64,000 nt of DNA, from contig NZ_MCHY01000008.1 in NCBI RefSeq assembly GCF_003609605.1, positions 248,001 to 312,000 of the forward strand, read 5' to 3'. Every line of letters begins with the position of its first letter. Positions within the stretch are counted from its first letter, which is position 1. The DNA is from Ammoniphilus oxalaticus (GTDB taxonomy: Bacteria; Bacillota; Bacilli; Aneurinibacillales; RAOX-1). Both the position numbers and the translations under genes were made by a program. The notes beneath the pieces were generated by a model. That model ran no database searches. It was given only the letters and a program-made list of their open reading frames with translations, and had not been told where the DNA came from. Of the stretch, positions 3,858-50,069 are shown one piece after another.

Positions 3858-3871
3858 AGCGTGACGGGATA

Positions 3872-3899
3872 GGCTTTGGCTACGCGGCCAAGGCCTTTT
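3872..3899 (+). terminator. Weak intrinsic terminator or attenuator between lepA and hemW
   Basis: GGCTTTGGC (3872-3880) pairs with GCCAAGGCC (3887-3895), followed by only four T residues. It may give partial termination ahead of hemW, for which I see no separate promoter. Confidence 0.4.
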
Positions 3900-3930
3900 C
3901 CTATCTATCCGCTTATAGGGAGGGTTATAA

Positions 3931-5070
3931 TTGCCTCGTTCAGTATATATTCATATTCCATTTTGCACTAACAAATGTTTTTATTGTGATTTCAACTCCT
4001 ATGTTACAAAAGATTCGGAGCTGATTTGGAATTACCTTTATGCGTTGGAAGAAGAAATGAAACAGACGGTTCGTAGGGTCCCCGCGCAACAAGTGGAAAC
4101 GATTTTTGTCGGTGGAGGCACACCGACATTTTTAGATCATGAACAGATGCGCTACTTTCTTCAATCCGTCCAAAGGGTATTTCCAGACCAAGCGCCAAGC
4201 ATGGAGTTTTCGATGGAAGCCAATCCAGGCACGACAGATTATGAAAAATTGGTTATCATGCGCCAAGGGGGCATTAACCGTTTAAGTTATGGCGCTCAAT
4301 CCTTCAATGATGCGCTGTTGAAAGAGATTGGGCGCATGCATGATTCGGGACAAGTGTTACAAAGCATCGCGGCCGCTAAACGGGCGGGATTTGATAATAT
4401 TTCAATCGACTTAATTTTCGGGTTGCCCAAACAAACCTTGACTACTTTTCACGAAACGCTCGACATCGCCTTTTCGTTAGATTTGCAACATTTTTCAGCA
4501 TATAGTTTACAAGTGGAGGAAAACACGTTATTCCATGTTCTATATGAGAAAAATCAGCTGGCTCTTCCGCCCGAAGATGATGAAGTGGAAATGTATGAAG
4601 TCGTTCGACACAGAATGGCTGAAGAAGGGTATACTCAATATGAAATCAGTAATTTTTCAAAAGAAGGTTTTCAGAGTCGCCACAATAAAACGTATTGGCG
4701 GAACTGTGAATATTATGGAATTGGCGCCGGCGCGCATGGCTATGTCCACGGTGAACGCCATGAGAATGCTGGACCCGTGGATCACTATATTCAGTTAGTG
4801 AAAGAAAAGGGATTACCGCGGATTGAGCAACATTTTGTTGCCCCATCAGAAGCGATGGAAGATTTTATGATTATGGGGTTACGTTTGCTTGAAGGCGTTT
4901 CTAAAAACGTTTTCTACGAGCGATATGGGATTGAACTGGCAACCCAATTTGGACCTGTTTTGGAGGAGTTAAAAAATAAAGGTTTACTTGAAGAACAAGG
5001 AGATCGCATTCGATTGACCAAACGAGGGATTCCTTTTGGAAATGAAGTTTTTGCGCGTTTTTTGGAATAG
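3931..5070 (+). CDS. hemW: Radical SAM heme chaperone HemW
   Basis: HemW (long called HemN-like) is a radical SAM protein that binds and transfers heme rather than oxidising coproporphyrinogen. The N-terminus has the CTNKCFYCDF cluster motif (Cys 12, 16 and 19). The extra cysteine of true HemN (CxxxCxxCxC) is absent, which favours HemW. GGGTPTFL and the LIFGLPKQT segment are further family marks, and the C-terminal HemN domain is present. The length of 379 residues is normal. The TTG start at 3931 follows AGGGAGGGT. It lies between lepA and hrcA as in Bacillus. Confidence 0.95.
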   Translation: MPRSVYIHIPFCTNKCFYCDFNSYVTKDSELIWNYLYALEEEMKQTVRRVPAQQVETIFVGGGTPTFLDHEQMRYFLQSVQRVFPDQAPSMEFSMEANPGTTDYEKLVIMRQGGINRLSYGAQSFNDALLKEIGRMHDSGQVLQSIAAAKRAGFDNISIDLIFGLPKQTLTTFHETLDIAFSLDLQHFSAYSLQVEENTLFHVLYEKNQLALPPEDDEVEMYEVVRHRMAEEGYTQYEISNFSKEGFQSRHNKTYWRNCEYYGIGAGAHGYVHGERHENAGPVDHYIQLVKEKGLPRIEQHFVAPSEAMEDFMIMGLRLLEGVSKNVFYERYGIELATQFGPVLEELKNKGLLEEQGDRIRLTKRGIPFGNEVFARFLE

Positions 5071-37512: not shown

Positions 37513-38658
37513 ATGGCAAAGAAAGTAGAAAAGCCAGGTGTTATCACAAAAGAAGCAGAGTCAACTGATTTAACCCTTGAAGAAGTGAAGGAACAGTTAG
37601 TTGAGATAGGAAAAAAACGTGGGGTCCTCACCTACAAAGAGATCATGGAGAAGATGTCTTCATTTGATCAAGATTCCGATCAGATGGACGAATTTTATGA
37701 ATTTCTTGCGGAGCAATCTATTGAACTCATCAACGATTCAGAAGATGATGAGGAAGAGACATCCTCAAAGAAGGAAGAGGAAGAAGAGGAGGAAGTTGAT
37801 CTCACAGATTTATCAGTGCCGCCAGGTGTGAAAATTAATGACCCCGTAAGAATGTATTTAAAAGAAATCGGACGCGTTCCTTTGTTAACAGCGGAAGAAG
37901 AAGTTTCCCTTGCTCAGAAAATCGAGGGTGGGGAAGAAGAAGCAAAAAGACGATTAGCCGAGGCAAACCTTCGCCTAGTTGTAAGTATCGCAAAGCGTTA
38001 TGTTGGAAGAGGAATGTTGTTTTTAGATTTAATTCAAGAAGGAAATATGGGTTTAATTAAAGCCGTCGAAAAGTTCGACTATACAAAAGGTTATAAGTTC
38101 AGCACGTACGCGACTTGGTGGATTCGTCAAGCGATTACGAGAGCGATTGCGGACCAAGCTCGAACCATTCGCATTCCTGTGCACATGGTTGAGACAATTA
38201 ACAAGTTAATACGTGTTTCCCGTCAGTTGTTGCAGGAGTTAGGACGCGAACCAAGTCCTGAGGAAATTGCGGAAAAAATGGATTTAACACCTGAAAGGGT
38301 TAGAGAGATCCTTAAGATTGCCCAGGAACCTGTTTCCCTAGAAACGCCGATTGGCGAAGAAGATGATTCACATTTAGGCGATTTTATCGAGGACCAAGAA
38401 GCGTTGGCACCCTCCGACGCGGCTGCTTATGAGTTGTTGAAGGAGCAATTGGAGGATGTGCTTGATACATTAACCGACAGAGAAGAAAATGTGCTTCGCT
38501 TGCGTTTTGGGTTAGATGATGGCAGAACCCGCACTCTTGAAGAAGTAGGTAAAGTGTTCGGTGTTACGCGTGAAAGAATCCGACAGATTGAAGCGAAGGC
38601 ATTAAGAAAGTTGCGGCACCCTAGCCGAAGTAAAAGACTTAAAGATTTCTTAGAGTAA
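37513..38658 (+). CDS. sigA: RNA polymerase primary sigma factor SigA (RpoD)
   Basis: Housekeeping sigma factor. The 381 residues include an acidic region 1.1 (Glu-rich at about 75-98), region 1.2 ([20 protein letters not shown]), region 2 with [38 protein letters not shown] and [20 protein letters not shown], region 3, and region 4.2 with [23 protein letters not shown] 37513 follows GGAAGGAGGGA. The TTGACA/TATAAT promoters across the window match its specificity. Confidence 0.98.
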
Positions 38659-38670
38659 ACTATAAACCAA

Positions 38671-38718
38671 GAAAGCCTGTTGTTGCGTGAAAATGTGACG
38701 CGGGTTTTCTTTTTTTTA
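38671..38718 (+). terminator. Terminator after sigA
   Basis: GAAAGCCTG (38671-38679) pairs with CGGGTTTTC (38701-38709) through G-U pairs, with a run of nine T residues after it. Confidence 0.75.
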
Positions 38719-38858
38719 TTGTTTAAAAGTAATTTCTCAGTAAAGGGCCTGTTAATCTTTATCTTTTTTATTATTTTATCGGTTTTGAAATGACAATGCA
38801 AATAAACTCTGGAAAATAAATTAATAGAGCGCGAGTCATAGTTCCCTCTTTCAATTTG

Positions 38859-38916
38859 TATAAATAGCATATGAGTGAATGTTCAGAAAAATGCGCCCCT
38901 TCTGAGCAAACGCTCA
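38859..38916 (+). promoter_or_regulatory. Promoter -10 and two operator-like palindromes before the acyl-CoA dehydrogenase gene
   Basis: A TATAAA box (38859-38864) is followed by TGAGTGAATGTTCA (38872-38885) and by a perfect inverted repeat TGAGCAAACGCTCA (38903-38916). Both are 14-bp dyads with TGA..TCA ends, 31 bp apart, located at and after the presumed transcription start. This looks like a TetR/FadR-type fatty-acid repressor target, but the regulator is not identified. Confidence 0.5.
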
Positions 38917-38939
38917 ATCGAAGTTAAGGGGGAAACAGT

Positions 38940-40079
38940 ATGTTTTTTGATCTGACAGACGAGCAAAAAATGATTAAAAAAATGCTGCGCGATTTCTCTG
39001 ATGCGGAAGTTGCCCCTGGCGCGATCGCAAGAGATCGCTCGGGAAAGTTTCCAACCGATGTTTTTGCTAAACTTGCTTCATTGAATGTAATGGGTTTGCC
39101 TTTTCCAGAAAAATACGAGGGCGGCGGCGCCGACACGATCAGCTTTGCGATTGTTGTTGAAGAACTCAGTCGTGGCTGTGGGGCGACAGGAATCACGTAT
39201 TCTGCTCATGTTTCGTTGGGCGGGGCGCCAATCCATCTATTCGGAACAGAGGAACAGAAGTTGACCTACTTAAAACCGTTGTGTCGTGGAGACTATCTAG
39301 GCGCGTTTGGATTAACAGAACCAAATGCGGGTTCTGACGCGGGAGGAACGCAAACGACTGCGGTGTTGGATGGGGATGAGTGGCTCATCAACGGTTCAAA
39401 ATGCTTTATAACAAATGCTTCTTTTGCAAAAAATTTAGCGATAACGGCAGTGACAGATCGTTCTAAAGGTACGAATGGGATCAGCGCATTTATCGTTCCG
39501 ACGGATACGCCTGGTTTCACGCTTGTAAACAATTATGAGAAAATGGGTTTGCACGCATCGGATACAACCGAATTATTTTTTGATAATGTCCGAATTTCGC
39601 GGGAAAATTTGTTAGGCAAAGAAGGAGAAGGCTTTAAACAATTTTTAATTACGTTAGATGGGGGAAGGATTGGGATTGCCGCAATGGCGGTCGGTTTAGC
39701 GCAAGCAGCTTTTGATAAAGCGTTGCAATACGCAAAGGAACGGAAGCAATTTGGGAGTAGTATTTCTAAGTTTCAAGCGATTCAGTTTAAATTAGCGGAC
39801 ATGGCGACGCAGATTGAAGTGGCAAGAAATATGGTATATAAAGCTGCATGGTTAAAAGATCAGGGCAGAAAATTTACAAAAGAAGCGGCGATCGCCAAGC
39901 TGTTTGCTACCGAGATGAGTGTTAAGGTTTGTGATGAAGCGATTCAAATCCATGGCGGTTACGGATATATGAGAGAGTATGAGGTTGAACGTTTTTATCG
40001 GGACGCGAAACTGCTTGAGATTGGAGAAGGAACTTCAGAAGTGCAACGAATGGTAATCGCGCGGCAAATCGGTTGTTAA
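38940..40079 (+). CDS. Acyl-CoA dehydrogenase
   Basis: FAD enzyme of fatty-acid or branched-chain acyl-CoA oxidation. The 379 residues match the butyryl/short-chain class: N-terminal helical domain, the middle LGAFGLTEPNAGSDAGG flavin segment, then the C-terminal domain with KQFGSSISKFQAIQFKLADM and IHGGYGYMREYEVERFYRD. The catalytic glutamate is expected in EIGEGTSEVQRMVIAR. Chain-length preference cannot be read from sequence alone. It is transcribed alone between a sigA terminator and its own terminator, downstream of operator-like palindromes. Confidence 0.92.
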   Translation: MFFDLTDEQKMIKKMLRDFSDAEVAPGAIARDRSGKFPTDVFAKLASLNVMGLPFPEKYEGGGADTISFAIVVEELSRGCGATGITYSAHVSLGGAPIHLFGTEEQKLTYLKPLCRGDYLGAFGLTEPNAGSDAGGTQTTAVLDGDEWLINGSKCFITNASFAKNLAITAVTDRSKGTNGISAFIVPTDTPGFTLVNNYEKMGLHASDTTELFFDNVRISRENLLGKEGEGFKQFLITLDGGRIGIAAMAVGLAQAAFDKALQYAKERKQFGSSISKFQAIQFKLADMATQIEVARNMVYKAAWLKDQGRKFTKEAAIAKLFATEMSVKVCDEAIQIHGGYGYMREYEVERFYRDAKLLEIGEGTSEVQRMVIARQIGC

Positions 40080-40090
40080 TTGAAATCCTC

Positions 40091-40129
40091 AAAAACACAC
40101 GATGGAGCATTCTTTCGTTGTGTTTTTTT
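40091..40129 (+). terminator. Terminator after the acyl-CoA dehydrogenase gene
   Basis: AAAAACACA-CGA (from 40091) pairs with TCG-TTGTGTTTTT (to 40129) with one bulge, followed by T residues. Confidence 0.65.
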
Positions 40130-40199
40130 GTTTGTAACAACCATTTACGTTAAAATAGGGGATAGCATAATCTTCTTTTTTATGAAAGGTGCGACGACA

Positions 40200-40925
40200 A
40201 TGGAATTATCTCAACGATTAACAGCCGTGGCTCGTTATGTTAAACCTGGCAGTAAAGTAGCCGATATCGGATCAGACCATGCCTTTTTACCGATTCACTT
40301 GATTCAAAGCGGAAAATCAGCCTCTGTTATTGCGGGGGAAGTCAATCGTGGTCCGCTTGAAATGGCCCGAAAAAATGTGGACCAAACGGGGTTTTCCAAG
40401 CAGATTGAGCTCCGTTTAGGAGATGGCTTGTCTGTCATTGAGGACGGTGAAGTCGATACCGTTTGTATTTCAGGTATGGGCGGCACATTGATTACTTCCA
40501 TTTTGGATGCGGGTATTGAACGCTTGTCGTCTGTTCAACAGTTAGTTTTACAGCCCAACGTAGCAGAAAAACAAGCGCGAAAATGGCTTTATGATCATGG
40601 CTGGGAATTAGTTGGAGAGACCATCTTAAAAGAAGAGGGAATCATTTATGAAGTGTTTTCGGCCGTTCGGGGCAACGCTAAAGCGCCATATCAATCACAA
40701 CAGTGGCCCCTGGAGCAATGGTTTGAACTTGGTCCCTTCTTGTGGTCGGAGAAATCGCCGATTTATAAAGAGAAGTGGGAACGCGAATGGGGAAATACAA
40801 AGCGGGTGTTGAGCGATTTAAAACGAGCCAAATCAACGGAAATAGAGACAAAGAGAATGGAGTTAGAAGATCGTTTAAAGTGGATAGAGGAGGTTCTAAC
40901 ATGTATGCAAACGGTCAGACCATAA
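40200..40925 (+). CDS. trmK: tRNA (adenine(22)-N1)-methyltransferase TrmK
   Basis: SAM-dependent enzyme that makes m1A22 in tRNA. It starts MELSQRLTAVARYV and has the SAM motif VADIGSDHAFLPIHLI (about 20), AGEVNRGPLEMARKN, and the VCISGMGGTLITSIL motif (about 88-102) typical of TrmK/YqfN. A coiled-coil C-terminus ends in LEDRLKWIEEVL. ATG 40200 is chosen over the open extension to 40080 because AAAGGTG precedes it and the family starts there. It overlaps the following gene by 25 bp. Confidence 0.94.
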   Translation: MELSQRLTAVARYVKPGSKVADIGSDHAFLPIHLIQSGKSASVIAGEVNRGPLEMARKNVDQTGFSKQIELRLGDGLSVIEDGEVDTVCISGMGGTLITSILDAGIERLSSVQQLVLQPNVAEKQARKWLYDHGWELVGETILKEEGIIYEVFSAVRGNAKAPYQSQQWPLEQWFELGPFLWSEKSPIYKEKWEREWGNTKRVLSDLKRAKSTEIETKRMELEDRLKWIEEVLTCMQTVRP

Positions 40926-42016
40926 TTCAGATGTTAGAGGCGTTTGCCCCGAAGCATTTAGCTGTGGAAGGGGACCGAATCGGTTTACAAGTAGGGACTT
41001 TAAATAAAGATGTAAAAAAAGTGATGATTGCATTAGATGTGTTGGAGGAAGTGGTGGATGAGGCGATTGAACAAGGTGTTGATCTTATTATCGCCCACCA
41101 TGCTGTCATCTTTCGACCACTTACCCAGCTTCGAACCGATCTGCCGGCCGGAAAGTTATATGAAAAATTAATTAAACATGATATTGCAGTGTATATTACT
41201 CATACGAATCTCGATGTGGCGGTTGGCGGGATTAATGACTTAATGGCAGATGCCTTAGGTTTAACGCAAACCGAACCGCTTGATAACGTGTACACTGAAC
41301 AGTTGAAGAAGGTCGTTGTGTTCGTCCCTAAAACACATAAACAACAAGTTTTGGACGCAATGGGAGCAGCAGGCGCGGGTTGGATTGGAAATTACAGTCA
41401 TTGTTCTTTTCAACTTGAAGGGGTTGGCGCATTTATGCCGCGCGCAGGTTCGCAACCTTATTCGGGTACGCAAGGTAAACTTGAGCAAGTTGAGGAAGTC
41501 CGAATTGAAACGGTCATTACAGCGCGCATTCAAAATCGAGTCATTAATAGTATGGTTAAAGCGCATCCATATGAGGAAGTGGCCTATGATATTTATCCGC
41601 TGGAACAACCGGGTCAAAGTTTTGGTCTAGGACGGATTGGTTATCTTGAGCAGGAGATGAATCTTGCTGAATTTACCGAACGTGTTAAGCGGGTGTTCGA
41701 TGTAAACGGAGCGCGTGTCGTTGGGGACTTGAATAAACGAATTAAAAAGGTGGCCGTGTTAGGCGGGGATGGAAATCGTTACGTTTCTAAAGCGATTTTT
41801 AAAGGGGCGGATGTTCTTGTAACAGGGGACGTCTATTATCACACCGCGCATGATGCGATGGCTGCTGGTTTGTCGCTTGTTGATCCAGGACACAATGTTG
41901 AAAAAATTATGAAAGAAAAAATCCAACAACTATTGCAACTAAATATAAAAGAGCAAAGTAAACGAACGGAAGTTGTCGTTTCGCGTGTCAATACGGATCC
42001 ATTTACGTTTTTATAG
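40901..42016 (+). CDS. Nif3-like dinuclear metal-centre protein (YqfO)
   Basis: DUF34/Nif3 family, annotated in databases as GTP cyclohydrolase I type 2, although the cellular role is unsettled. Metal-binding motifs are DLIIAHHAVIF (two His, about 62-72), YITHTNLDVAVGG (about 97-109) and near the end TGDVYYHTAHDAMAAG. A central PII-like insert (about 130-240) marks the long Bacillus form. ATG 40901 with AGAGGAGG upstream gives 371 residues; the longer frame from 40775 lies within trmK. trmK-yqfO pairing follows sigA in Bacillus too. Confidence 0.93.
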   Translation: MYANGQTIIQMLEAFAPKHLAVEGDRIGLQVGTLNKDVKKVMIALDVLEEVVDEAIEQGVDLIIAHHAVIFRPLTQLRTDLPAGKLYEKLIKHDIAVYITHTNLDVAVGGINDLMADALGLTQTEPLDNVYTEQLKKVVVFVPKTHKQQVLDAMGAAGAGWIGNYSHCSFQLEGVGAFMPRAGSQPYSGTQGKLEQVEEVRIETVITARIQNRVINSMVKAHPYEEVAYDIYPLEQPGQSFGLGRIGYLEQEMNLAEFTERVKRVFDVNGARVVGDLNKRIKKVAVLGGDGNRYVSKAIFKGADVLVTGDVYYHTAHDAMAAGLSLVDPGHNVEKIMKEKIQQLLQLNIKEQSKRTEVVVSRVNTDPFTFL

Positions 42017-42028
42017 GGGGATATAGAG

Positions 42029-42853
42029 ATGGATAGAGAGAAGTGTAGTCAGCTAATCCAGCAGTCCCTTCGAGAAAAGTTGGATTTGAAGGTTTGGGAG
42101 ATTAGCGTGGAAGAAGATCATGTCGTCGTAAAAAATGTGGACAACCCTTCGCTTGGATTTAGTCTATCGTTGACAGCTATTTTATCCAAAATGGAAAAAG
42201 GCCAGGAACAGGAGAAAATTGAACAGTCGGTTGCAAATATTGTGGAGATGACCAAAGCAAGTTTGCAAACAAAGTCGCTGCTCGGCAATGAACAATCCAT
42301 TTTTCCAGTGTTAAGAAGCAACGGCCATCCAACGGAACAGCAAGGGAAACGATTTTTGAAGCGGGCGCATACAGCTGAATCATCGATTTTTTATGCGTTT
42401 GATTTAGGTAAAACATACGCGTTAATTGATGAGCAGATGTGTATAGATGCGGGTTACGATAAACAACAAATTCATACTTTTGCGATCCAAAATGTGAAAA
42501 AATTAGATACAACATACAATAAAGATGAAGTTGCTGGAAATACATTTTATTTTTTCAGTCAACCAGATGGTTATGCGGCGAGTCGCGTACTGAACGATGA
42601 GTTGCTCGCATTTATGCGACGAATGATGACGAAAGATATGGGAATCGCGATACCTCATCAAGACGCGCTTGTTATCGCGGATATACAAAATGACGCAGGC
42701 TATAACATCTTAAGTCGTCTCAATATAGATTTTTGCATGAGAGGCGATATCCCGATTTCACCTCTCCCTTTTATATGGACGGAGGATGAAAAGTTGGAAC
42801 CGATCATGGTGCTCGCTAATCCTGGAGCTACTCCAAACGTTAGAAAAGAATAA
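42029..42853 (+). CDS. DUF1444 family protein (YtpQ-like)
   Basis: 274 residues resembling Bacillus YtpQ, a conserved protein of unknown function. The recognisable parts are the central IFPVLRSNGHP stretch, YAFDLGKTYALIDEQM, and SRLNIDFCMRGDIPISPLPF near the end with a hydrophobic core. No membrane segment or catalytic motif was identified. It lies 12 bp after the Nif3-like gene and 9 bp before the hydrolase, so the three probably form one operon. Confidence 0.8.
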   Translation: MDREKCSQLIQQSLREKLDLKVWEISVEEDHVVVKNVDNPSLGFSLSLTAILSKMEKGQEQEKIEQSVANIVEMTKASLQTKSLLGNEQSIFPVLRSNGHPTEQQGKRFLKRAHTAESSIFYAFDLGKTYALIDEQMCIDAGYDKQQIHTFAIQNVKKLDTTYNKDEVAGNTFYFFSQPDGYAASRVLNDELLAFMRRMMTKDMGIAIPHQDALVIADIQNDAGYNILSRLNIDFCMRGDIPISPLPFIWTEDEKLEPIMVLANPGATPNVRKE

Positions 42854-42862
42854 GGAGTCAAT

Positions 42863-43699
42863 ATGGATCGTTCTTCCCGAATCAAGTTGTTAGATTGTGA
42901 CGTTTATTTCGAGCATTTGAAACCAGAAGAAACGGATGCTTCGTTTTCATTTCTGCTTGTTCACGGGTTTCTCGGATCTTGTTTTTCATTTAGAAAGCTG
43001 GCTCCGCTGTTAGCCCAACGATACGATGTCTATTCGATTGATTTAGTTGGTTTTGGCGCGAGTGAAAAGTCTCAAACATTCCGTTATTCGTACTTCCAGT
43101 ACGCATCGTTGCTCGTTGAGTTTATGAGAAAGAAAGGTTTAAGCAAAGTGATCCTAATCGGACATTCGATGGGAGGACAAATTGCCCTCTATACAGCAAA
43201 ATTCTTTCCAAGATCGGTGGCAGGGCTAATTTTAATTGGGAGTTCGGGGTATGTGTTAAGAGCTCCCCGCTTGGCTGTTTCCTTATCATACTTACCGTTT
43301 AGTTCTTGGTGGATGAAATTTTGGATGCGACGTTATAAAATAGAAGAAGTGTTAAAAAACACACTTTTCGATGATTCGTTAATTACGCGTGAAATGGTTG
43401 ATGCCTATCAAGCCCCAATGAAAGATCGGGATTTTACTTATACTTTGCTTGGATTATTGAGACATCGAGAGGGCGATTTAACGAGAGAAGAGATTCAGAC
43501 GATTAAACAAGAAACATTGTTAATTTGGGGAGAACAGGATGAAATTGTTCCAATTCGGATCGGATTAGGACTAAGCCAGGATCTACCTCACGCCCAGTTT
43601 GCTTGTATTCCCGACACCGGTCATCAAAGTATTGAAGAAAAACCGCTAGAAGTCTTTAACGAGATTGAAAAATGGCTGCGTAAACTAAATTTACACTAA
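42863..43699 (+). CDS. Alpha/beta-hydrolase fold protein
   Basis: 278 residues. The oxyanion region LLVHGFLGSCFSFRKL (about 33), the nucleophile elbow GHSMGGQIAL (serine at about 102), the acid LIWGEQDEIVP (about 220) and the catalytic histidine in PDTGHQSIEEKP (about 252) form the complete triad. The substrate cannot be inferred; lipases, esterases and C-C hydrolases share this pattern. ATG 42863 follows AAGGAG. Confidence 0.85.
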   Translation: MDRSSRIKLLDCDVYFEHLKPEETDASFSFLLVHGFLGSCFSFRKLAPLLAQRYDVYSIDLVGFGASEKSQTFRYSYFQYASLLVEFMRKKGLSKVILIGHSMGGQIALYTAKFFPRSVAGLILIGSSGYVLRAPRLAVSLSYLPFSSWWMKFWMRRYKIEEVLKNTLFDDSLITREMVDAYQAPMKDRDFTYTLLGLLRHREGDLTREEIQTIKQETLLIWGEQDEIVPIRIGLGLSQDLPHAQFACIPDTGHQSIEEKPLEVFNEIEKWLRKLNLH

Positions 43700-43717
43700 A
43701 TGTGGGAGGTCATTATT

Positions 43718-44062
43718 TTGTCTATTATATTTTCTACGTATCCATCTTGAACAAGCTGCCGTAAGGCCAAGTCTTGGCTTGAGGAAAATGAGATTGAGTT
43801 TGAAGAACGTCGCTATATGAAGGATCATTATACTGTTGAGGAATTAAACGAGTTGACCTCTAAAATTTCCGTTGATGAAATTTTGAATAAGAGAGGCGTC
43901 GTTTATAGAGAAAGAAAAGAACAATTAACGGGGCTAAGTGATGAACAGTTGATTGAGGAAATGGCGACAGAGCCGCGGTTGATTCGAAGGCCTATTATCA
44001 TCGCGGGTGACCAAGTGATTGTTGGATTTAGCGAGGAAAAAATGGAAAGCGTGTTAAAATAA
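43718..44062 (+). CDS. Selenocysteine-containing Spx/ArsC-family protein (in-frame TGA at 43748)
   Basis: Reading TTG 43718 through TGA 43748-43750 gives one 114-residue protein, MSIIFSTYPS-U11-TSC14-RKAKSWLEE. The TGA falls exactly where Spx/ArsC proteins have the first cysteine of CxxC (Spx has CTSCRKA). The rest matches the thioredoxin-like family, with EEMATEPRLIRRPII (R90-R91-P92) and a C-terminal VGFSEEKMESVL. GGGAGGT lies upstream, and the next in-frame ATG (43817) would lose the fold's first strand and active site. A SECIS-like hairpin follows the TGA. The family either binds RNA polymerase (Spx, MgsR) or acts as a reductase. The gap relative to Spx near its Gly52 region makes a reductase role equally likely. 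Confidence 0.82.
43763..43780 (+). promoter_or_regulatory. SECIS-like hairpin for the Spx/ArsC-family gene
   Basis: AAG-(bulged G)-CCAA (43763-43770), loop GTC, TTGGCTT (43774-43780). The loop G lies 23 nt after the T of the TGA, inside the 16-37 nt range used for bacterial SECIS elements. A bulge in the upper stem and a loop starting GU also recall the E. coli fdhF element. Confidence 0.6.
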
Positions 44063-44084
44063 ACAATGGTTTGTTTTTTTAAAA

Positions 44085-44112
44085 AAAGGGACTTCTTAAG
44101 GAAGTCTCTTTA
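44085..44112 (+). terminator. Terminator after the Spx/ArsC-family gene
   Basis: GGGACTTC (44088-44095), TTAAG loop, GAAGTCTC (44101-44108) with a G-U pair and a short TTT tail. Confidence 0.6.
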
Positions 44113-44116
44113 ATCC

Positions 44117-44145
44117 TTGCTAATTATGGAAGGCTATGATATAGT
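44117..44145 (+). promoter_or_regulatory. SigA-type promoter of tRNA-fMet
   Basis: TTGCTA (44117-44122), 17-bp spacer, TATAGT (44140-44145), 24 bp before the mature tRNA. Confidence 0.6.
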
Positions 44146-44168
44146 TAGTAACAGATTCAACTAACTGG

Positions 44169-44244
44169 CGCGGGGTGGAGCAGTTGGCAGCTCGTCGGGC
44201 TCATAATCCGAAGGTCACAGGTTCAAATCCTGTCCCCGCAACCA
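44169..44244 (+). tRNA. tRNA-fMet (CAT), initiator
   Basis: 76-nt cloverleaf with encoded CCA. The anticodon loop CTCATAA has CAT with GGG/CCG-type stem pairs. Position 1 is C against A72, the unpaired end that marks an initiator tRNA. The T arm is ACAGG-TTCAAAT-CCTGT. Confidence 0.93.
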
Positions 44245-44322
44245 TAATTCTTTGTCCTCGAAGTGGGCAACCAACTAAAATGATTTTACATATTCACTTT
44301 TTATAAAAGGGATATTGGGGAT

Positions 44323-44399
44323 CGGGACGTAGCGCAGCTCGGTAGCGCGCACCCTTGGGGTGGGTGAGGTCGCAGGTTCAAATCCTGTCGTTCCGACCA
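44323..44399 (+). tRNA. tRNA-Pro (TGG)
   Basis: 77-nt cloverleaf with acceptor CGGGACG/CGTTCCG, anticodon loop CTTGGGG (TGG), T arm GCAGG-TTCAAAT-CCTGT and encoded CCA. Confidence 0.93.
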
Positions 44400-44426
44400 T
44401 TTAAAAAATATACCGTTTAAAATGTA

Positions 44427-44451
44427 AAACCACTAAATTAGTGGTTTTTTT
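44427..44451 (+). terminator. Terminator of the fMet-Pro tRNA unit
   Basis: AACCACTA (44428-44435) pairs with TAGTGGTT (44439-44446), followed by a T run. Confidence 0.85.
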
Positions 44452-44566
44452 GCTGTTCAATACGATTTTTTACAAGTAAATGAGTATTGAGGTATGCCTT
44501 TTGAAAAATGAAAGATACTAAAAGAGATAAGTTAATTATCATTCATTTTAGAGAGGGTGGGTTTGC

Positions 44567-46156
44567 TTGGACATTAATCTGGATAGACCGATCGTTGGAA
44601 CGAAAAGTATGATTGTAAGTCCGCACTATTTAGCCTCCATGGCGGGAAATTCAATTTTGGAGAAAGGAGGAAATGCGTTTGACGCGGCTGTCGCTGTTGC
44701 TGCATGTTTGGGGGTCGTTTATCCGGCAATGACAGGACCGGGCGGTGATTCCTTTTGGTTAACTTACTCGCCAAAAGAGGGAAAAGTCAACGCCTACAAT
44801 GGAGCGGGAAGATCTGGTTCAAAAGTTACGAGGGAGTTATATGAAGGAGAAGAATCGATTCCTTTTCGCGGCATTCGGGCCGCCATTACCGTGCCAGGGC
44901 AAGTCGATGCATGGGATGCAATCATATCTAAATATGGAAAGCTTACATTGAAAGAAGCGCTGCAACCAGCGATTGACTATGCGTTAAACGGCTTCCCCTA
45001 TACGCGTGATCAATACGTGAACACGAAGAAAAATCTAGACGTTTTATCGAAGATTCCAATTACGAAAGATACTTACACGCCGAACGGACAAGTTCCCCGA
45101 GTTGGTTCCCGTTTCGTTCAAGAAAATTTAGGTAAGAGCTTGCAATTGATTGCTGAACAAGGTCGGGACGTGTTTTACAAAGGAGAACTCGGCGATCGAA
45201 TTATTAATTACATCCAAGAAAATGGCGGGTACTTAGTAAAAGAAGATTTTGAGAAGCATAAAGGATTTTGGACGGAACCCATTTCGACTACATACCGCGG
45301 GTATGATATGTATCAATTTGGACCACCTACACAAGGTTTGGCATCGTTAATGACATTAAATATATTAGAGAATTTCGATTTTAGTAAAATTGAACACGGT
45401 TCATTCGAATATTACCATCTACTTGTCGAAGCATTAAAGCTAAGTTTTGAGGAACGTAATGCTGAATTAACCGATCCAGAATTCCACAAGATTCCGTTGG
45501 ATCGCATCTTAAGCAAAGAATATGCGCGACAGAAAGCTGAACAGATTCGTTCAAAAGCAAGTTCATTAGACAGCGCTTTTATGGGCGCGGATACAGCTTA
45601 TGCGGCGGTTGTGGATGAGGAGGGAAATGCTGTTTCCTTTATCCTAAGTATTTATCATGAGTATGGATCGGGGATTGTCGCGGGGGACACGGGGATCCTG
45701 ATGCAGAATCGAGGTTCTTTTTTCTCGCTTGATCCAAATCATGTTAATACGCTGGAGCCAAACAAATTTACGTTTACGACAATTATTCCAGCGATGGCGT
45801 GTAAAGATGGCAAGCCGTATATCCTATATGGTACGCAAGGAGGAGAAGGGCAACCTCAAACGCAAACCGCGATGATAACAAGGATGCTTGAATATGGCAT
45901 GGATCCGCAAGAAGCGGTTAGCCAACCACGTTGGTTATGGGGACGAACGTGGGGGGTCGCGCGTCTAGATCTGAAAATTGAATCGCGTTGTTGTCCGAAT
46001 ACAATTCAAGCGTTACGTGATGCAGGACATGATGTGAATGTAGTAAAAGACTATGATGATTTTATGGGTCATGCTTCCGCCATAAAAGTCGATGATGACG
46101 GCTTCTTGCAGGGCGGTGTCGATCCACGTAGTGACGGAGCTGCAATCGGAAGATAA
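44567..46156 (+). CDS. Gamma-glutamyltransferase family protein
   Basis: N-terminal nucleophile hydrolase family that cleaves gamma-glutamyl bonds (glutathione, polyglutamate or related). The large-subunit part has SPHYLASMAGNSILEKGGNA and GPGGDSFWL. The self-cleavage/nucleophile Thr is expected at MGADTAYAAVVDEEG (about residue 345), followed by GSGIVAGDTGILMQNRG and YGTQGGEGQPQTQ. The 529 residues resemble YwrD-type cytosolic members; no signal peptide is seen. Because the family consensus around the nucleophile is DTTH/SxF, activity is likely but the substrate is not known. The TTG start at 44567 follows GAGAGGGTGGG. Confidence 0.88.
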   Translation: MDINLDRPIVGTKSMIVSPHYLASMAGNSILEKGGNAFDAAVAVAACLGVVYPAMTGPGGDSFWLTYSPKEGKVNAYNGAGRSGSKVTRELYEGEESIPFRGIRAAITVPGQVDAWDAIISKYGKLTLKEALQPAIDYALNGFPYTRDQYVNTKKNLDVLSKIPITKDTYTPNGQVPRVGSRFVQENLGKSLQLIAEQGRDVFYKGELGDRIINYIQENGGYLVKEDFEKHKGFWTEPISTTYRGYDMYQFGPPTQGLASLMTLNILENFDFSKIEHGSFEYYHLLVEALKLSFEERNAELTDPEFHKIPLDRILSKEYARQKAEQIRSKASSLDSAFMGADTAYAAVVDEEGNAVSFILSIYHEYGSGIVAGDTGILMQNRGSFFSLDPNHVNTLEPNKFTFTTIIPAMACKDGKPYILYGTQGGEGQPQTQTAMITRMLEYGMDPQEAVSQPRWLWGRTWGVARLDLKIESRCCPNTIQALRDAGHDVNVVKDYDDFMGHASAIKVDDDGFLQGGVDPRSDGAAIGR

Positions 46157-46171
46157 ACCGATGGAATAGCG

Positions 46172-46214
46172 AACCACTTCAGTTAGCGCGCTTACTAACT
46201 GAAGTGGTTTTTTT
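46172..46214 (+). terminator. Terminator after the gamma-glutamyltransferase gene
   Basis: AACCACTTCAGTTAG (46172-46186) pairs perfectly with CTAACTGAAGTGGTT (46195-46209), followed by T residues. Confidence 0.93.
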
Positions 46215-46312
46215 GGTCATTATCATAGGCGCGCGGATAACCTTGACCTTATATATTTTATATGTATTAATATTCATATGATATTATAGTCCATAGAATA
46301 CGGGGTTATTCG

Positions 46313-46410
46313 ATGAAAATTTCAGTAATTATTCCGACCTTGAATGAGGAACAGACCATTTCGCAGACGGTTAAATCCCTTCAATCACAGCAAACAAATT
46401 ATCCAATCGA
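46313..46410 (+). pseudogene. Glycosyltransferase family 2 N-terminal remnant
   Basis: ATG 46313 starts MKISVIIPTLNEEQTISQTV, the typical first strand and helix of a GT-A glycosyltransferase. The frame loses similarity after NYPIE at about 46408, where the sequence switches to mtnK, and stops at 46421. Only about 32 of several hundred codons remain. It is a deletion remnant. Confidence 0.75.
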
Positions 46411-47379
46411 ATGGAAGCGCTGATCGTTCAACATACAGTCTGCCCGTCTCTCGTTCCGCAAGTGTTTCACTATAATGCTGAGTTAGCTTTAATCGTCATG
46501 GAGGACCTCCCCTCTTTTCAAATTTTACGGCAAGGTTTGATTGAGCTTAACCGATATTCGGCGCTACCGAAACATCTAGGTCAGTTTTTGGCTAAAATGT
46601 TATTCTACACTTCTCGTTTCGGGTTGGAAGAAGAGGAGCGAACAGCGAAAAGGGTTCAATTTATCAATCCCGAATTATCCCATATGACAGGAGGGGTAGT
46701 CTTTACTGATCCTTTTCAAGACGCGGAAATGAATCAATTTAACCCATTGATTCGTGAACAGGTTACTGAAATCTGGGAAAAAAGAGCTTTACAGCTAGAG
46801 GTCGCCAAATTAAAGGATCATTTTTTCACACATGCGCAAGCTTTAGTTCATGGTGATCTACATACAGGAAGTATTATGGTGAGAGAGGGAGAGACGAAGA
46901 TCGTTGACCCCGAATTTGCCTTTTATGGACCAATCGGTTTCGATATAGGGGCGATTATCGGAAATATTTTATTAAATTACGCCTCGCATGAGGGGTATAC
47001 GGATCAATCGCAAGCCCGCGCCGAGTATCAACAATATCTATTAGAAACAATCAGACAATTATGGATAGAATTTGAGCGGGAATTTGCGACGCTCTGTCGC
47101 GAAGAATCGAAAGAAGCCAGTGTATTGAACCTTGATTACTTAAACAATATACTTGTTCGTGTCCTGCAAGATACGCTAGGATTTGCGGGATGTAAAATGT
47201 TGCGTCGGGTGATTGGTATCTCGCGCGTGGCCGATTTAGAAGGAATTGAGGATGAACGTCGTCGGGCTAAAGCGGAAGTTCTTGTTCTAGAGCTGGGCGC
47301 GCGATTAATTGTACAGCGCCAAGCGGTAACGAGCGTGGATGGACTCGTAAACATCATTGTAAGCAGTAAAAAAATGTAA
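46411..47379 (+). pseudogene. mtnK: S-methyl-5-thioribose kinase, N-terminally deleted
   Basis: 322 codons align with MtnK of the methionine salvage pathway from about residue 103 to the end. VFHYNAELALIVMEDLPSF, HGDLHTGSIMV (catalytic loop), VDPEFAFYGPIGFDIGAI and GFAGCKMLRRVIGI are all present. The first roughly 100 residues, with the ATP-binding N-lobe, are missing. The apparent ATG 46411 has no ribosome site and lies at the joint with the glycosyltransferase fragment. A kinase lacking its N-lobe should be inactive. Confidence 0.8.
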
Positions 47380-47384
47380 GAGAC

Positions 47385-47413
47385 TTGACTGAATTCAGAT
47401 TGGGTTATATAAT
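47385..47413 (+). promoter_or_regulatory. SigA-type promoter of the tRNA-His/Cys/Arg cluster
   Basis: TTGACT (47385-47390), 17-bp spacer, TATAAT (47408-47413), 27 bp before tRNA-His. It begins right after the mtnK remnant. Confidence 0.8.
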
Positions 47414-47439
47414 GACACTACAAACAAGCGCGGGAACGT

Positions 47440-47516
47440 GGCGGTCGTGGCGAAGTGGTTAACGCATCGGATTGTGGCTCCGACACTCGTGGGTTCGATT
47501 CCCATCGGCCGCCCCA
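47440..47516 (+). tRNA. tRNA-His (GTG)
   Basis: Acceptor GCGGTCG/CGGCCGC, with an extra G at 47440 facing discriminator C, as in all tRNA-His. Anticodon loop ATTGTGGC (GTG), T arm GTGGG-TTCGATT-CCCAT, CCA encoded. Confidence 0.94.
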
Positions 47517-47520
47517 ACAA

Positions 47521-47595
47521 GGGAGCATAGCCAAGTGGTAAGGCGCGGGTCTGCAAAACCTTCATTCCCCGGTTCAAGTCCGGGTGCTCCCTCCA
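47521..47595 (+). tRNA. tRNA-Cys (GCA)
   Basis: Acceptor GGGAGCA/TGCTCCC, anticodon loop TCTGCAAA (GCA), T arm CCCGG-TTCAAGT-CCGGG, encoded CCA. It starts 5 nt after tRNA-His. The acceptor and D arm are ordinary, so it is not a tRNA-Sec. Confidence 0.94.
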
Positions 47596-47665
47596 ACTCA
47601 GTACGTCTTGGCGTAATTGGGATTCCCGTTCAGCTTTGTTTATGTGTAGCGCGAAGTATTAAAAT

Positions 47666-47742
47666 GTCCCAGTAGCTCAGTTGGATAGAGCAACGGCCTT
47701 CTAAGCCGTGAGTCGGGAGTTCGAATCTCTTCTGGGACGCCA
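47666..47742 (+). tRNA. tRNA-Arg (TCT)
   Basis: Acceptor GTCCCAG/CTGGGAC, D arm GCTCAGTTGGATAGAGC, anticodon loop CTTCTAA (TCT), T arm with GGGAG-TTCGAAT-CTCTT, encoded CCA. Confidence 0.93.
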
Positions 47743-47757
47743 CTCTTATGAATAATG

Positions 47758-47936
47758 ATTCCTGCGATGTTCGTAGCATTTTTATGTTTCGAACCTTAAA
47801 TTTTGTTTCGGGATTCCGATATTTGATTTGTGGACGTTATGCCCGCGCTGCGGGAAAGCGGAAATGAACGTGAGGAGACCCACCTGTCGAGCGCAGGTTA
47901 TGAAACAAACTAATGTTACGGCATACGCGGGATTTT
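47758..47936 (+). ncRNA. ssrS: 6S RNA
   Basis: 6S RNA mimics an open promoter and sequesters sigma-A RNA polymerase in stationary phase. Ends are complementary: TCCTGCG (47760-47766) with CGCGGGA (47926-47932). The 5' part TGCGATGTTCGTAGC matches the conserved GAUGUUCGyarGC, the middle CCGATATTTGATTTGTGG matches CCGAUAUUU, and the 3' part GTTACGGCATACGCGGG matches the conserved GCGGCAUCUCGG-type end. The length of about 178 nt is normal. A terminator follows 15 nt later, and a TATGAA box at 47747 or read-through from tRNA-Arg could supply the transcript. The call was made by eye from conserved blocks. Confidence 0.82.
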
Positions 47937-47950
47937 ACTATGTATTTAAA

Positions 47951-47983
47951 ACTCATCGTTATTAATAACGATGAGTTTTTTTA
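47951..47983 (+). terminator. Terminator after 6S RNA
   Basis: ACTCATCGTTA (47951-47961), TTAA loop, TAACGATGAGT (47966-47976), then seven T residues. Confidence 0.93.
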
Positions 47984-48109
47984 TTTGGCTTTAATCAGCT
48001 CTAAAAAGCCTCTTTCTAAAGTATGCGTAATTGACAAGCGTAACTCGCACATATAATAAGATTAACAGCGGGTTGTAATCAGATTGTCGATGAAAAGAGG
48101 AGAGGCAAA

Positions 48110-49732
48110 ATGATAAAGAGCATAGGGGAGTTAATGAGCGACGATATCCAGGCGCAACGGGACCAAAATTTCCTCATTTATTATGATCGGCATGGCAAGC
48201 GAACCGAGACAAGTTATGCCGATTTTATTGAACGTGTTGGCTGTGTTGTTCAATTCTTAGATAAACAAGGCATTCGACGGGGGGATCGAATCATTACGCT
48301 CATGCAGAATAAAGTTGAACAAGTCACCATCTATTTCGCTGCATGGGCAATGGGTGTTTGCGTTGCGCCTGTCAATCTTGCTGAATCAGACGACCGTATT
48401 CGATTTATCGTTGAGCAGAGCATGGCGAGAGCTATTTTTGTTCAATCAGAAGCAAGCAACAAAGTGAAAAAATTGTTGATGCGAAATCAAGTTGAAACGA
48501 GTGTGTTTTCAGTTGAAGCAGATGACTCACGCCCTTTATTTGCGCAAGCAGGTCGAGAATGGAAGGCGCTGCTGAATAGTTCGATAGATGATGAGGCTTT
48601 AATTGTTTATACATCGGGTACGACAGGGAAGCCAAAGGGCGTTATCCTTAAACAAAAAAACTTATTGTATGACGCGGAAGCGATCGCCGAATGGCATCAG
48701 TTGCAGCAAGGAATTCGAATGATGTGTGTGTTGCCTATCCACCATGTAAATGGCATTGTCGTTACCCTTGTGACGCCATTTTTCTGTCGGGGGACGGTTA
48801 TTCTTAACGAACGGTTCAGCGTAAGTTATTTTTGGGAAAGAATTGATCGGGAGCAGGTTCAGATTGTTAGTGTTGTGCCAACATTATTGGAATTTTTATT
48901 AGAAGTTGATAAAGAATTACAAAGGGTTTCGTTTACGTCATTGCGTCATATTATTTGTGGGGCGGGGCCATTGCTTGTTGAAACAGCGCTATCGTTTGAA
49001 AAGAAGTTTAATGTTCCGATTATTCACGGCTACGGTCTATCTGAAACAACATGCTACTCTAGTTTTCTTCCAATCGATTTATCGGATGAGGAGCGAAGGG
49101 TATGGTTGTCAAAGTATGGATTTCCATCGATCGGAACCCCGATTAAACACAATCAGATGGCGATTTTAGATGAGCATGGAACGAAGCAAGCAGAGGGCAA
49201 GCGCGGTGAAATTGCGATACGGGGTGAAACGGTTATGGAAGCCTATGATAAAAGAGCGGATGCGAATGCAGAGGCGTTTCGACATGGAGGTGGATGGTTT
49301 ATGACTGGTGATGAGGGCTTTTACAAAAATGATCAACACGGCAGGCCTTTTTTCTTTATTACGGGCCGGATCAAGGAACTGATCATTCGTGGCGGTATAA
49401 ATCTATCTCCTTTAGAAATCGATGAAGTATTAAAGAAGCATCCAAAAGTTCAGCATGCTTTAGCTGTCCCATTCGAAAATCGTTTCTACGGTGAAGAAAT
49501 TGCCGCCTATATCGTTCCCAAAGAAGGCATGACGGTAACAGAATCAGAGCTTATCCAACATTGCGCGCAGCGCCTGCCATTCATCAAGCAACCAAAGGTG
49601 TTTATTTTTGGCGATGAATTACCTTACACAGCGACAGGTAAACCGAAGAGATTGCAACTAAAGGAACAGTTAAAAAAACAATTAAGCGTTCATCGCAATA
49701 TCCAGTTTAGAGCAGAAAATGCGGATCGTTAA
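48110..49732 (+). CDS. AMP-dependent acyl-CoA synthetase/ligase
   Basis: ANL-superfamily enzyme that activates a carboxylic acid as acyl-AMP and then a thioester. The 540 residues carry A3 YTSGTTGKPKGVIL (about 165), A5 HGYGLSETT (about 307), the TGD motif MTGDEGF (about 400), the hinge ITGRIKELIIRGGINLSP and the A10 lysine in PYTATGKPKRLQL. The acyl substrate is unknown. ATG 48110 has AGAGGAG upstream. It is transcribed alone and ends in a shared terminator with the small gene on the other strand. Confidence 0.88.
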   Translation: MIKSIGELMSDDIQAQRDQNFLIYYDRHGKRTETSYADFIERVGCVVQFLDKQGIRRGDRIITLMQNKVEQVTIYFAAWAMGVCVAPVNLAESDDRIRFIVEQSMARAIFVQSEASNKVKKLLMRNQVETSVFSVEADDSRPLFAQAGREWKALLNSSIDDEALIVYTSGTTGKPKGVILKQKNLLYDAEAIAEWHQLQQGIRMMCVLPIHHVNGIVVTLVTPFFCRGTVILNERFSVSYFWERIDREQVQIVSVVPTLLEFLLEVDKELQRVSFTSLRHIICGAGPLLVETALSFEKKFNVPIIHGYGLSETTCYSSFLPIDLSDEERRVWLSKYGFPSIGTPIKHNQMAILDEHGTKQAEGKRGEIAIRGETVMEAYDKRADANAEAFRHGGGWFMTGDEGFYKNDQHGRPFFFITGRIKELIIRGGINLSPLEIDEVLKKHPKVQHALAVPFENRFYGEEIAAYIVPKEGMTVTESELIQHCAQRLPFIKQPKVFIFGDELPYTATGKPKRLQLKEQLKKQLSVHRNIQFRAENADR

Positions 49733-49792
49733 TCGATTACAAGAGAGTAGAATGTTATGTAAGTTACAAGCTTGCCTGTTTTTGTCGCAAAA

Positions 49793-49826
49793 TAAAAACG
49801 AGATTGCGGTAAGCAATCTCGTTTAT
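49793..49826. terminator. Bidirectional terminator between the acyl-CoA ligase and YqzM-like genes
   Basis: AAACGAGATTGC (49796-49807) pairs with GCAATCTCGTTT (49813-49824). The A-rich left flank gives a T run on the minus strand, so it serves mainly the small minus-strand gene. Confidence 0.85.
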
Positions 49827-49838
49827 GTGTGAAGTTAA

Positions 49839-49967
49839 CTACGCGGCGTGCATCAGACTTGCAATTGTAAAAATAATGGCGATCAGAATAAAGAATCCAA
49901 ATGATACGCCGAAACCGATAATATTGTCGACCATATCATGTTGCGTTGCGTCACGTTTATATTCCAT
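49839..49967 (-). CDS. YqzM-like single-pass peptide, 42 residues
   Basis: The minus strand from ATG 49967 reads MEYKRDATQHDMVDNIIGFG, then VSFGFFILIAIIFTIASLMH and ends in AA. The polar N-terminus, the GFGVSFGFF block and one helix resemble the tiny Bacillus membrane protein YqzM, whose role is unknown. GGGAGGTGACGA gives a strong ribosome site, and a terminator follows its stop, so it is likely a real gene. Confidence 0.7.
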   Translation of the reverse strand: MEYKRDATQHDMVDNIIGFGVSFGFFILIAIIFTIASLMHAA

Positions 49968-50069
49968 GAGTCGTCACCTCCCATTACATCTCTCATATTT
50001 TAACATATCCACAATACTAATATAGTATCATATCGACAGGGCTTGGTAAATCCATTTATCGTTGCCTTG

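Follow-up and report, generated by a model that had tools for sequence, protein, structure and literature searches.

The frame at positions 43718 to 44062 of the window, by which we mean the whole analysed stretch of 64,000 nucleotides from Ammoniphilus oxalaticus, is very probably a genuine selenoprotein gene. It is predicted to encode a protein of the ArsC/Spx fold with selenocysteine (Sec) at the first position of the CxxC active site. This reading is based on the conservation of an in-frame TGA, on purifying selection, on the conserved codons of a SECIS-like hairpin, on the sel genes of the genome and on two of its formate dehydrogenase (FdhA) genes, which likewise carry a TGA and a hairpin. 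The joint claim that the product is a selenoprotein, that it is a UxxC redox protein and that it is not a canonical Spx has in our estimate a probability of roughly 0.9. Most likely, the protein acts as a redox-responsive switch or as an oxidoreductase. A well-supported Sec form of a Spx-related protein hereby stands beside a Cys-containing Spx/MgsR-like paralogue in the same genome, so that the two can be compared within one cell. If the Sec protein is a sensor, it would be a gene regulator triggered by a selenenylsulfide. Moreover, a conserved protein motif which possibly doubles as SECIS stem bears on the origins of selenoproteins.

Statements on published work refer to excerpts of the papers cited. 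Selenoproteins of related type have been predicted in sequence surveys. An 'Arsenate reductase 2' group of UxxC selenoproteins, assigned to cd03032 and comprising 42 sequences, was reported in 2008 from the GOS marine metagenome reads (PMC2398784); cd03032 is named ArsC_Spx elsewhere (PMC8755942). This group resembles the window protein in the Sec at the first CxxC position and in the Spx-subfamily ArsC fold, a likeness drawn from its published description. The ArsC selenoproteins of the Sargasso Sea are of UxxS type (PMC1088965), and reviews list both ArsC-like UxxC and UxxS families (PMC9312934, PMC13188914). The sequence-only reading had mentioned ArsC-like selenoproteins as survey predictions, which agrees with the literature found, where the cd03032 UxxC group, for example, is a prediction only. 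In the excerpts of the open-licence PMC literature, we found no description of a Sec-containing Spx. UxxC selenoproteins of the Spx subfamily are thus already known from surveys; the gene described here belongs to a separate lineage for which no specific NCBIfam model exceeds its cut-off.

Gene, active site and neighbourhood

The list of open reading frames, which obeys stop codons, gives a gene at 43817-44062, so that the active site is missing from the listed gene. When the TGA at 43748 is read through, no other stop occurs in the frame (Table 1) and the N-terminus becomes LSIIFSTYPS-U-TSC-RKAKSWL..., with the active site U-T-S-C in place of the C-T-S-C of relatives. The sequence-only reading had placed the TGA at the first cysteine of the CTSC motif and had expected read-through to restore a family protein of full length; both proposals hold, and the same codon is TGA in all four genomes of the family. 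It had also asked what homologues carry at position 11. Cysteine is found there in the Cys homologues and TGA in the 19 TGA-bearing homologues examined, and a UGA at a position which is Cys in homologues is what is expected of a selenoprotein. Pfam assigns the Sec protein to ArsC (PF03960, 1.1e-21), with a further match to glutaredoxin (1.1e-7).

Concerning the start codon, three orthologues have ATG where the window gene has TTG, preceded by a similar purine run. Initiation at the in-frame ATG at 43700 instead of the TTG is less likely. The alpha/beta hydrolase gene upstream is a possible operon partner; a similar hydrolase was recognised by eye upstream of the Sec gene in all three orthologous loci. 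Downstream, the stretches compared contain tRNA-Met in four of four genomes and tRNA-Pro in three.

Table 1. Predicted features of the Sec gene and its surroundings (positions in the window).
Feature	Position	Strand	Remarks
alpha/beta hydrolase gene	42863..43699	+	Pfam PF00561, 2.5e-34; ends 18 nt before the Sec gene
GGGAGG, probable ribosome-binding site for initiation at TTG	43704..43709	+	from reading of the sequence
Gene of Sec-containing ArsC/Spx-fold protein (predicted)	43718..44062	+	TTG start; product of 114 residues when TGA is decoded as Sec
In-frame TGA, predicted selenocysteine Sec11	43748..43750	+	first Cys position of CxxC
TGC, Cys14, predicted resolving Cys partner of Sec11	43757..43759	+	Cys in 4/4 orthologous proteins
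SECIS-like hairpin AGGCCAA-GUC-UUGGCUU	43764..43780	+	stem 43764-43770 / 43774-43780, loop GUC 43771-43773
tRNA-Met	44169-44244	+	downstream of the Sec gene
tRNA-Pro	44323-44399	+	downstream of the Sec gene

Conservation of the TGA within family and order

Fifteen genomes of the order were compared, four from the family of the window genome and 11 from another family. An orthologue with a single TGA at the same codon is present in all four genomes of the own family, which represent three genera. The three orthologues share 62-64% identity with the window protein. The sequence-only reading had proposed a search for the TGA in other genomes and had regarded a decayed frame behind it as grounds for rejection; in each of the three orthologues, the frame is intact after the TGA. 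In the other family (11 genomes), no match bears a TGA. selA exceeds its cut-off in eight of the 15 genomes (4/4 in the own family, 4/11 in the other), and the TGA form occurs in four of these eight and in none of the seven others. In this order, therefore, only genomes with selA carry the TGA form.

A search of 398 genomes of the class (E up to 1e-20) matched at least 110 of them, and among the matches listed only the four genomes of the own family carry the TGA. In some genomes of this search and of the phylum search described below, scoring covered a part of the first-pass candidates. Among the best matches of this search, no Cys orthologue of the Sec lineage was recognised; the best match without TGA (L136, 50%) possesses Gly52, a residue discussed below.

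The pattern of substitution between the four genomes shows that purifying selection acts on both sides of the TGA. In the nine codons 5' of it, pN is 0.05-0.13 and pS 0.37-0.95; in the codons 3' of it, the hairpin codons excluded, pN is 0.18-0.25 and pS 0.72-1.0. pN/pS thus stays far below 1 before as well as after the TGA, which neither a decayed tail nor an ordinary stop codon explains. Synonymous sites outside the hairpin are near saturation between the four genomes.

All 11 genomes of the other family encode a second Cys protein, YusI-like, with an NKCGTC and (F/M)FNTSG pattern (incomplete in one), and no such protein was recognised in the four genomes of the own family. In these four, the Sec protein might substitute for it. 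A weak match of 28% (L199) was noted in one of the four genomes (G014).

SECIS-like hairpin

The GU-loop hairpin which the sequence-only reading had placed 23 nt downstream is present. Its loop is GUC, its 7-bp stem includes one G-U pair, and the distance of 23 nt is counted from the U of the UGA, corresponding to 20 nt after the codon. Published limits for bacterial SECIS elements are a loop of 3-9 nt, a stem of 4-16 bp, a spacing of 16-37 nt, a G within the first two loop positions and an energy of at most -7.5 kcal/mol (PMC13188914). The window hairpin lies inside these limits for loop (3 nt), stem (7 bp), loop G and spacing (20 nt). Its energy varies with the stretch folded, from -10.0 kcal/mol (51 nt from +9) to -7.1 kcal/mol (33 nt). 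When 53 nt starting at the UGA are folded, the z-score is -0.24 and the fold of minimum free energy differs from the hairpin, so that folding energy alone is unremarkable. In a comparison with Rfam, no family exceeds its cut-off. As the energy-based tests gave little, the case for the element rests on its conservation and on the comparison of Sec with Cys homologues.

The codons +6 to +10 (43766-43780; GCC AAG TCT TGG CTT), which make up the hairpin except its first two bases, do not differ between the four genomes; over 330 bases, by comparison, pairs of these genomes are 65-72% identical. Among degenerate codons whose amino acid is the same in the four genomes, 4/4 within the hairpin versus 6/46 elsewhere are identical (p 0.0009).

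The comparison was extended to 19 TGA homologues and 109 Cys homologues. The latter derive from 141 matches, which gave 131 distinct sequence sections, of which the 109 with an A[KR]xW[LM] motif were used and 22 dropped. At two registers, picked after the TGA genes had been seen, a stem of at least 6 bp with a loop starting with G is found in 14/19 TGA homologues versus 1/109 Cys homologues; five of the 19 lack it at these registers. When any register and a G in either of the first two loop positions are allowed, the numbers are 15/19 and 6/109. The sequences in both sets are not independent, and p-values for this comparison are therefore a guide only. In shuffles of synonymous codons, the mean z-score is -0.90 for the 19 TGA homologues versus -0.11 for 125 Cys homologues, and a rank under 0.05 is reached by 3/19 and 11/125, respectively; codon use was estimated from these very sequences, and this makes a signal harder to detect. 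Among 14 aligned TGA genes (the remaining five of the 19, whose pairing is at a different register, were excluded), 89.8% of the pair cells are standard. Covariation in this alignment is slight, with two pairs changed on both sides, in one cell each.

Selenocysteine machinery and further selenoprotein genes

The sequence-only reading had named the absence of all sel genes as a finding that would speak against it. The genome possesses the complete machinery: selA (588.7 bits), selB (391.1 bits), selD (428.7 bits; selD itself carries one TGA) and selC, whose tRNA-Sec (64.6 bits) adjoins selB and is also called by ARAGORN as tRNA-SeC. A second match to RF01852 over the cut-off (47.5 bits, contig C5) stands among several weaker ones; we take it to be an ordinary tRNA. 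Two FdhA genes (G000:C11:121322-123331 and G000:C9:617821-619827) contain an in-frame TGA, each followed by a 7-bp hairpin with a GUC loop as in the window gene, one base nearer to the TGA. Two further formate dehydrogenase alpha genes of the genome are without TGA. The related genome G014 encodes two full-length selA genes (C33 and C23; 592.5 and 589.1 bits).

Family assignment

The sequence-only reading had called the protein Spx-type. This assignment stands as far as the broad family is concerned and fails for Spx proper. TIGR01617, the model of Spx/MgsR RNA polymerase-binding proteins, is passed with 100.1 bits by the window protein and with 98.7-102.9 bits across the four orthologous proteins (cut-off 75.05). 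It is the sole NCBIfam model passed among those matched, in the three orthologues as well. The Spx model NF002459 is missed (window protein 88.5, the four orthologous proteins 84.7-88.6, cut-off 123). The same holds for NF041106 (ArsC_rel_Se_1, 'ArsC family (seleno)protein', UxxC; PMC13188914), which shares fold and motif with the window protein; the latter scores 40.7 bits and the three orthologues 35.3-36.9, versus a cut-off of 85.

In Bacillus subtilis Spx, Gly52 contacts the C-terminal domain of the RNA polymerase alpha subunit (PMC2801614). This glycine is present in 36/36 rows of Spx/MgsR type versus 0/4 Sec orthologues, which have S, P, P and P, and a deletion of two residues adjoins the lost site in the Sec protein. 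Compared with Spx and MgsR of Bacillus, the Sec protein has the fold, the CTSC-like motif, TIGR01617 and the RRP region in common, R91, R92 and P93 being kept in all four Sec orthologues. It differs from them by the absence of Gly52, by being two residues shorter there, by its score below the Spx cut-off and by its place outside their clade; the C-terminal extension of canonical Spx is absent as well. Each of the four genomes also encodes a Cys-containing Spx/MgsR-like paralogue, and the two paralogues scored both exceed the Spx cut-off. In the window genome, this paralogue (G000:C8:347095) lies 55 kb away, passes the Spx model with 139.3 bits (cut-off 123) and is, judged from its sequence, the genome's Spx-like regulator. 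Given that the Gly52 contact is absent and that a separate Cys Spx/MgsR-like protein is encoded in the genome, the Sec protein appears to be neither canonical Spx nor MgsR.

A likeness also exists to the YusI subfamily, including OseR of Clostridioides difficile. Shared features are the ArsC/Spx fold, the CxxC position, the RP motif and the absence of Gly52, and the Sec protein agrees with 11/11 Cys rows of YusI type in having Asn at Spx position 58 and Gly at position 61, these rows being labelled by sequence pattern in an alignment without any named YusI or OseR sequence. The Sec protein differs by Sec in place of Cys and by Arg91, as in most Spx rows, in place of Lys91.

A protein tree was built from 66 rows (19 TGA rows, 10 Cys loci from the search of the phylum and 37 chosen Cys rows). 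The four Sec proteins group together (100/99) and fall outside a group of 36 Cys rows of Spx/MgsR type (99/91). After removal of L175, a long branch, the rebuilt tree tentatively joins the Sec lineage with the YusI type (93/75), and the alternative placement with Spx/MgsR is not rejected (p-AU 0.49). By this tree, the Sec proteins are a lineage of their own, near Spx/MgsR and the YusI/OseR type. A single clade of all 19 TGA rows was rejected (p-AU 7.7e-55).

Among solved structures, sequence comparison finds Spx as best match of the Cys paralogue (113.7 bits), and 3gkx (76.1 bits) followed by Spx (67.5 bits) for the Sec protein. An AlphaFold model of the Sec protein from a four-row alignment has a pLDDT of 88.5. 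With this model, Foldseek returns Spx (9.6e-11) and the ArsC-related 3gkx (1.2e-10), and VIA-align places YffB best (Z 18.2), tied with 3gkx and Spx. Because of these ties, the fold cannot separate a regulator from a reductase.

Proposed mechanism and alternative explanations

Judged by conservation and machinery, SelB and Sec-tRNA would insert selenocysteine at UGA 43748, with the hairpin at 43764-43780 as the guiding element. The UxxC motif suggests that Sec11 would then attack an oxidant or a disulfide and close a selenenylsulfide with Cys14, which thioredoxin or low-molecular thiols might reset.

It is highly improbable that translation truly ends at the TGA and that what follows is a truncated gene starting at the internal ATG 43817 or part of a pseudogene. 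The codon is a stop in table 11, the listed frame begins at that ATG, and the internal Met is kept in all four orthologues. Against this, the codons before the TGA vary synonymously while the residues they encode are conserved, and TGA and hairpin are kept in four of four genomes. No obvious ribosome-binding site was seen by eye before ATG 43817, and a protein initiated there would lack both the first strand and the active site. Arsenate reduction, which the sequence-only reading had offered as one function of the family, is also unlikely. An arsenate reductase of ArsC type would agree with the fold and with the name 'arsenate reductase' which surveys give to Sec homologues (PMC2398784). However, TIGR00014, the glutaredoxin-type ArsC arsenate reductase model, is missed (58.2 versus 106.05 bits), and no ars gene was recognised by eye in the list of open reading frames from 38000 to 50000, four proteins of which were profile-scanned. 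Hardly more probable is a canonical Spx/MgsR regulator which binds the alpha C-terminal domain of RNA polymerase and whose switch is made easier to oxidise by Sec. The TIGR01617 score, the rank of Spx among the best structural matches and the retained R91, R92 and P93 speak in its favour. Replacement of Gly52 by S or P with the deletion beside it, the Spx cut-off missed by all four proteins, the position outside the 36-row clade and the Cys paralogue in each genome speak against it.

The more serious choice lies between the two readings of a redox protein. In the one, the Sec protein is a plain thiol/selenol-disulfide oxidoreductase, glutaredoxin-like and without a role in gene regulation; in the other, it is a switch of the YusI/OseR kind. 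The glutaredoxin match in Pfam, YffB as best VIA-align hit and the lost polymerase contact are consistent with an oxidoreductase, and most Sargasso Sea selenoproteins are redox proteins or candidates for such (PMC1088965). On the other hand, no redox-enzyme gene directly adjoining the Sec gene was seen by eye in the four genomes, and OseR, a member of the YusI subfamily lacking Gly52, behaves as an O2-responsive repressor: in C. difficile it represses O2-reductase genes in anaerobiosis, and repression is gone at 1% O2 (PMC11481553). As OseR regulates without Gly52, the absence of this residue is compatible with control of gene expression. We incline slightly towards a YusI/OseR-like switch, to which we give close to an even chance, over the plain oxidoreductase, which is only a little less probable. 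Rather doubtful is the farther-reaching proposal that the Sec protein, like YusI/OseR, is a sensor controlling gene expression, with selenium-based detection of redox state or O2, combined with repeated interchange of Cys and Sec. In such a sensor, the Sec-Cys pair would close on traces of O2 and thereby impose or release control without the Gly52 contact to the polymerase.

TGA-bearing relatives and evolution

A search of 398 genomes of the phylum with a profile of the four proteins (E up to 1e-18) matched at least 53 genomes. Elsewhere in the Bacillota, TGA homologues occur at no fewer than 15 loci in 14 other genomes. In all 19 TGA-bearing homologues examined, the window gene included, the TGA is found at the aligned active-site position.

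The Cys and Sec forms of the ArsC/Spx fold could have interchanged repeatedly, since the conserved AKxWL motif after the active site already encodes much of the SECIS stem. In post hoc counts, 29/109 Cys homologues already pair the 4-bp core of the stem versus 0-2/109 at nine shifted registers, and 73/109 are within three synonymous changes of a 6-bp stem with a G-first loop.

Some distant TGA relatives adjoin genes for O2-sensitive or O2-related proteins, which is no more than a hint. A 2-oxoacid:ferredoxin oxidoreductase adjoins the TGA relative in L192 and, as far as the frames suggest, in L205, and a hemerythrin does so in L209. In L204 (G457) and L207 (G675), the Sec ArsC-like gene follows the genes of AmmeMemoRadiSam protein A and of the associated radical SAM enzyme. 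L179 (G744) contains a closely spaced pair of Sec YusI/ArsC-like genes (850-1194 and 3516-3860); the first is immediately preceded by a flavorubredoxin-like gene of the ODP family, incomplete because the compared section ends there. In L206 (G533), a gene of the selenium-metabolism protein YedF (3745-4374; 203.6 bits, cut-off 110) lies directly downstream of the Sec ArsC-like gene. No neighbour of these kinds was seen in L201, L202, L203 and L208.

The motif itself varies among relatives. In L168, L180, L181, L184 and L185, Ala, Val or Ser occupies the position of the second Cys (UxxA, UxxV, UxxS), so that these proteins have no resolving Cys at that place. Two genomes (G013 and G014) encode extra MgsR-like paralogues (L197 and L198, respectively) in which the first Cys of CTSC is Asp (DTSC).
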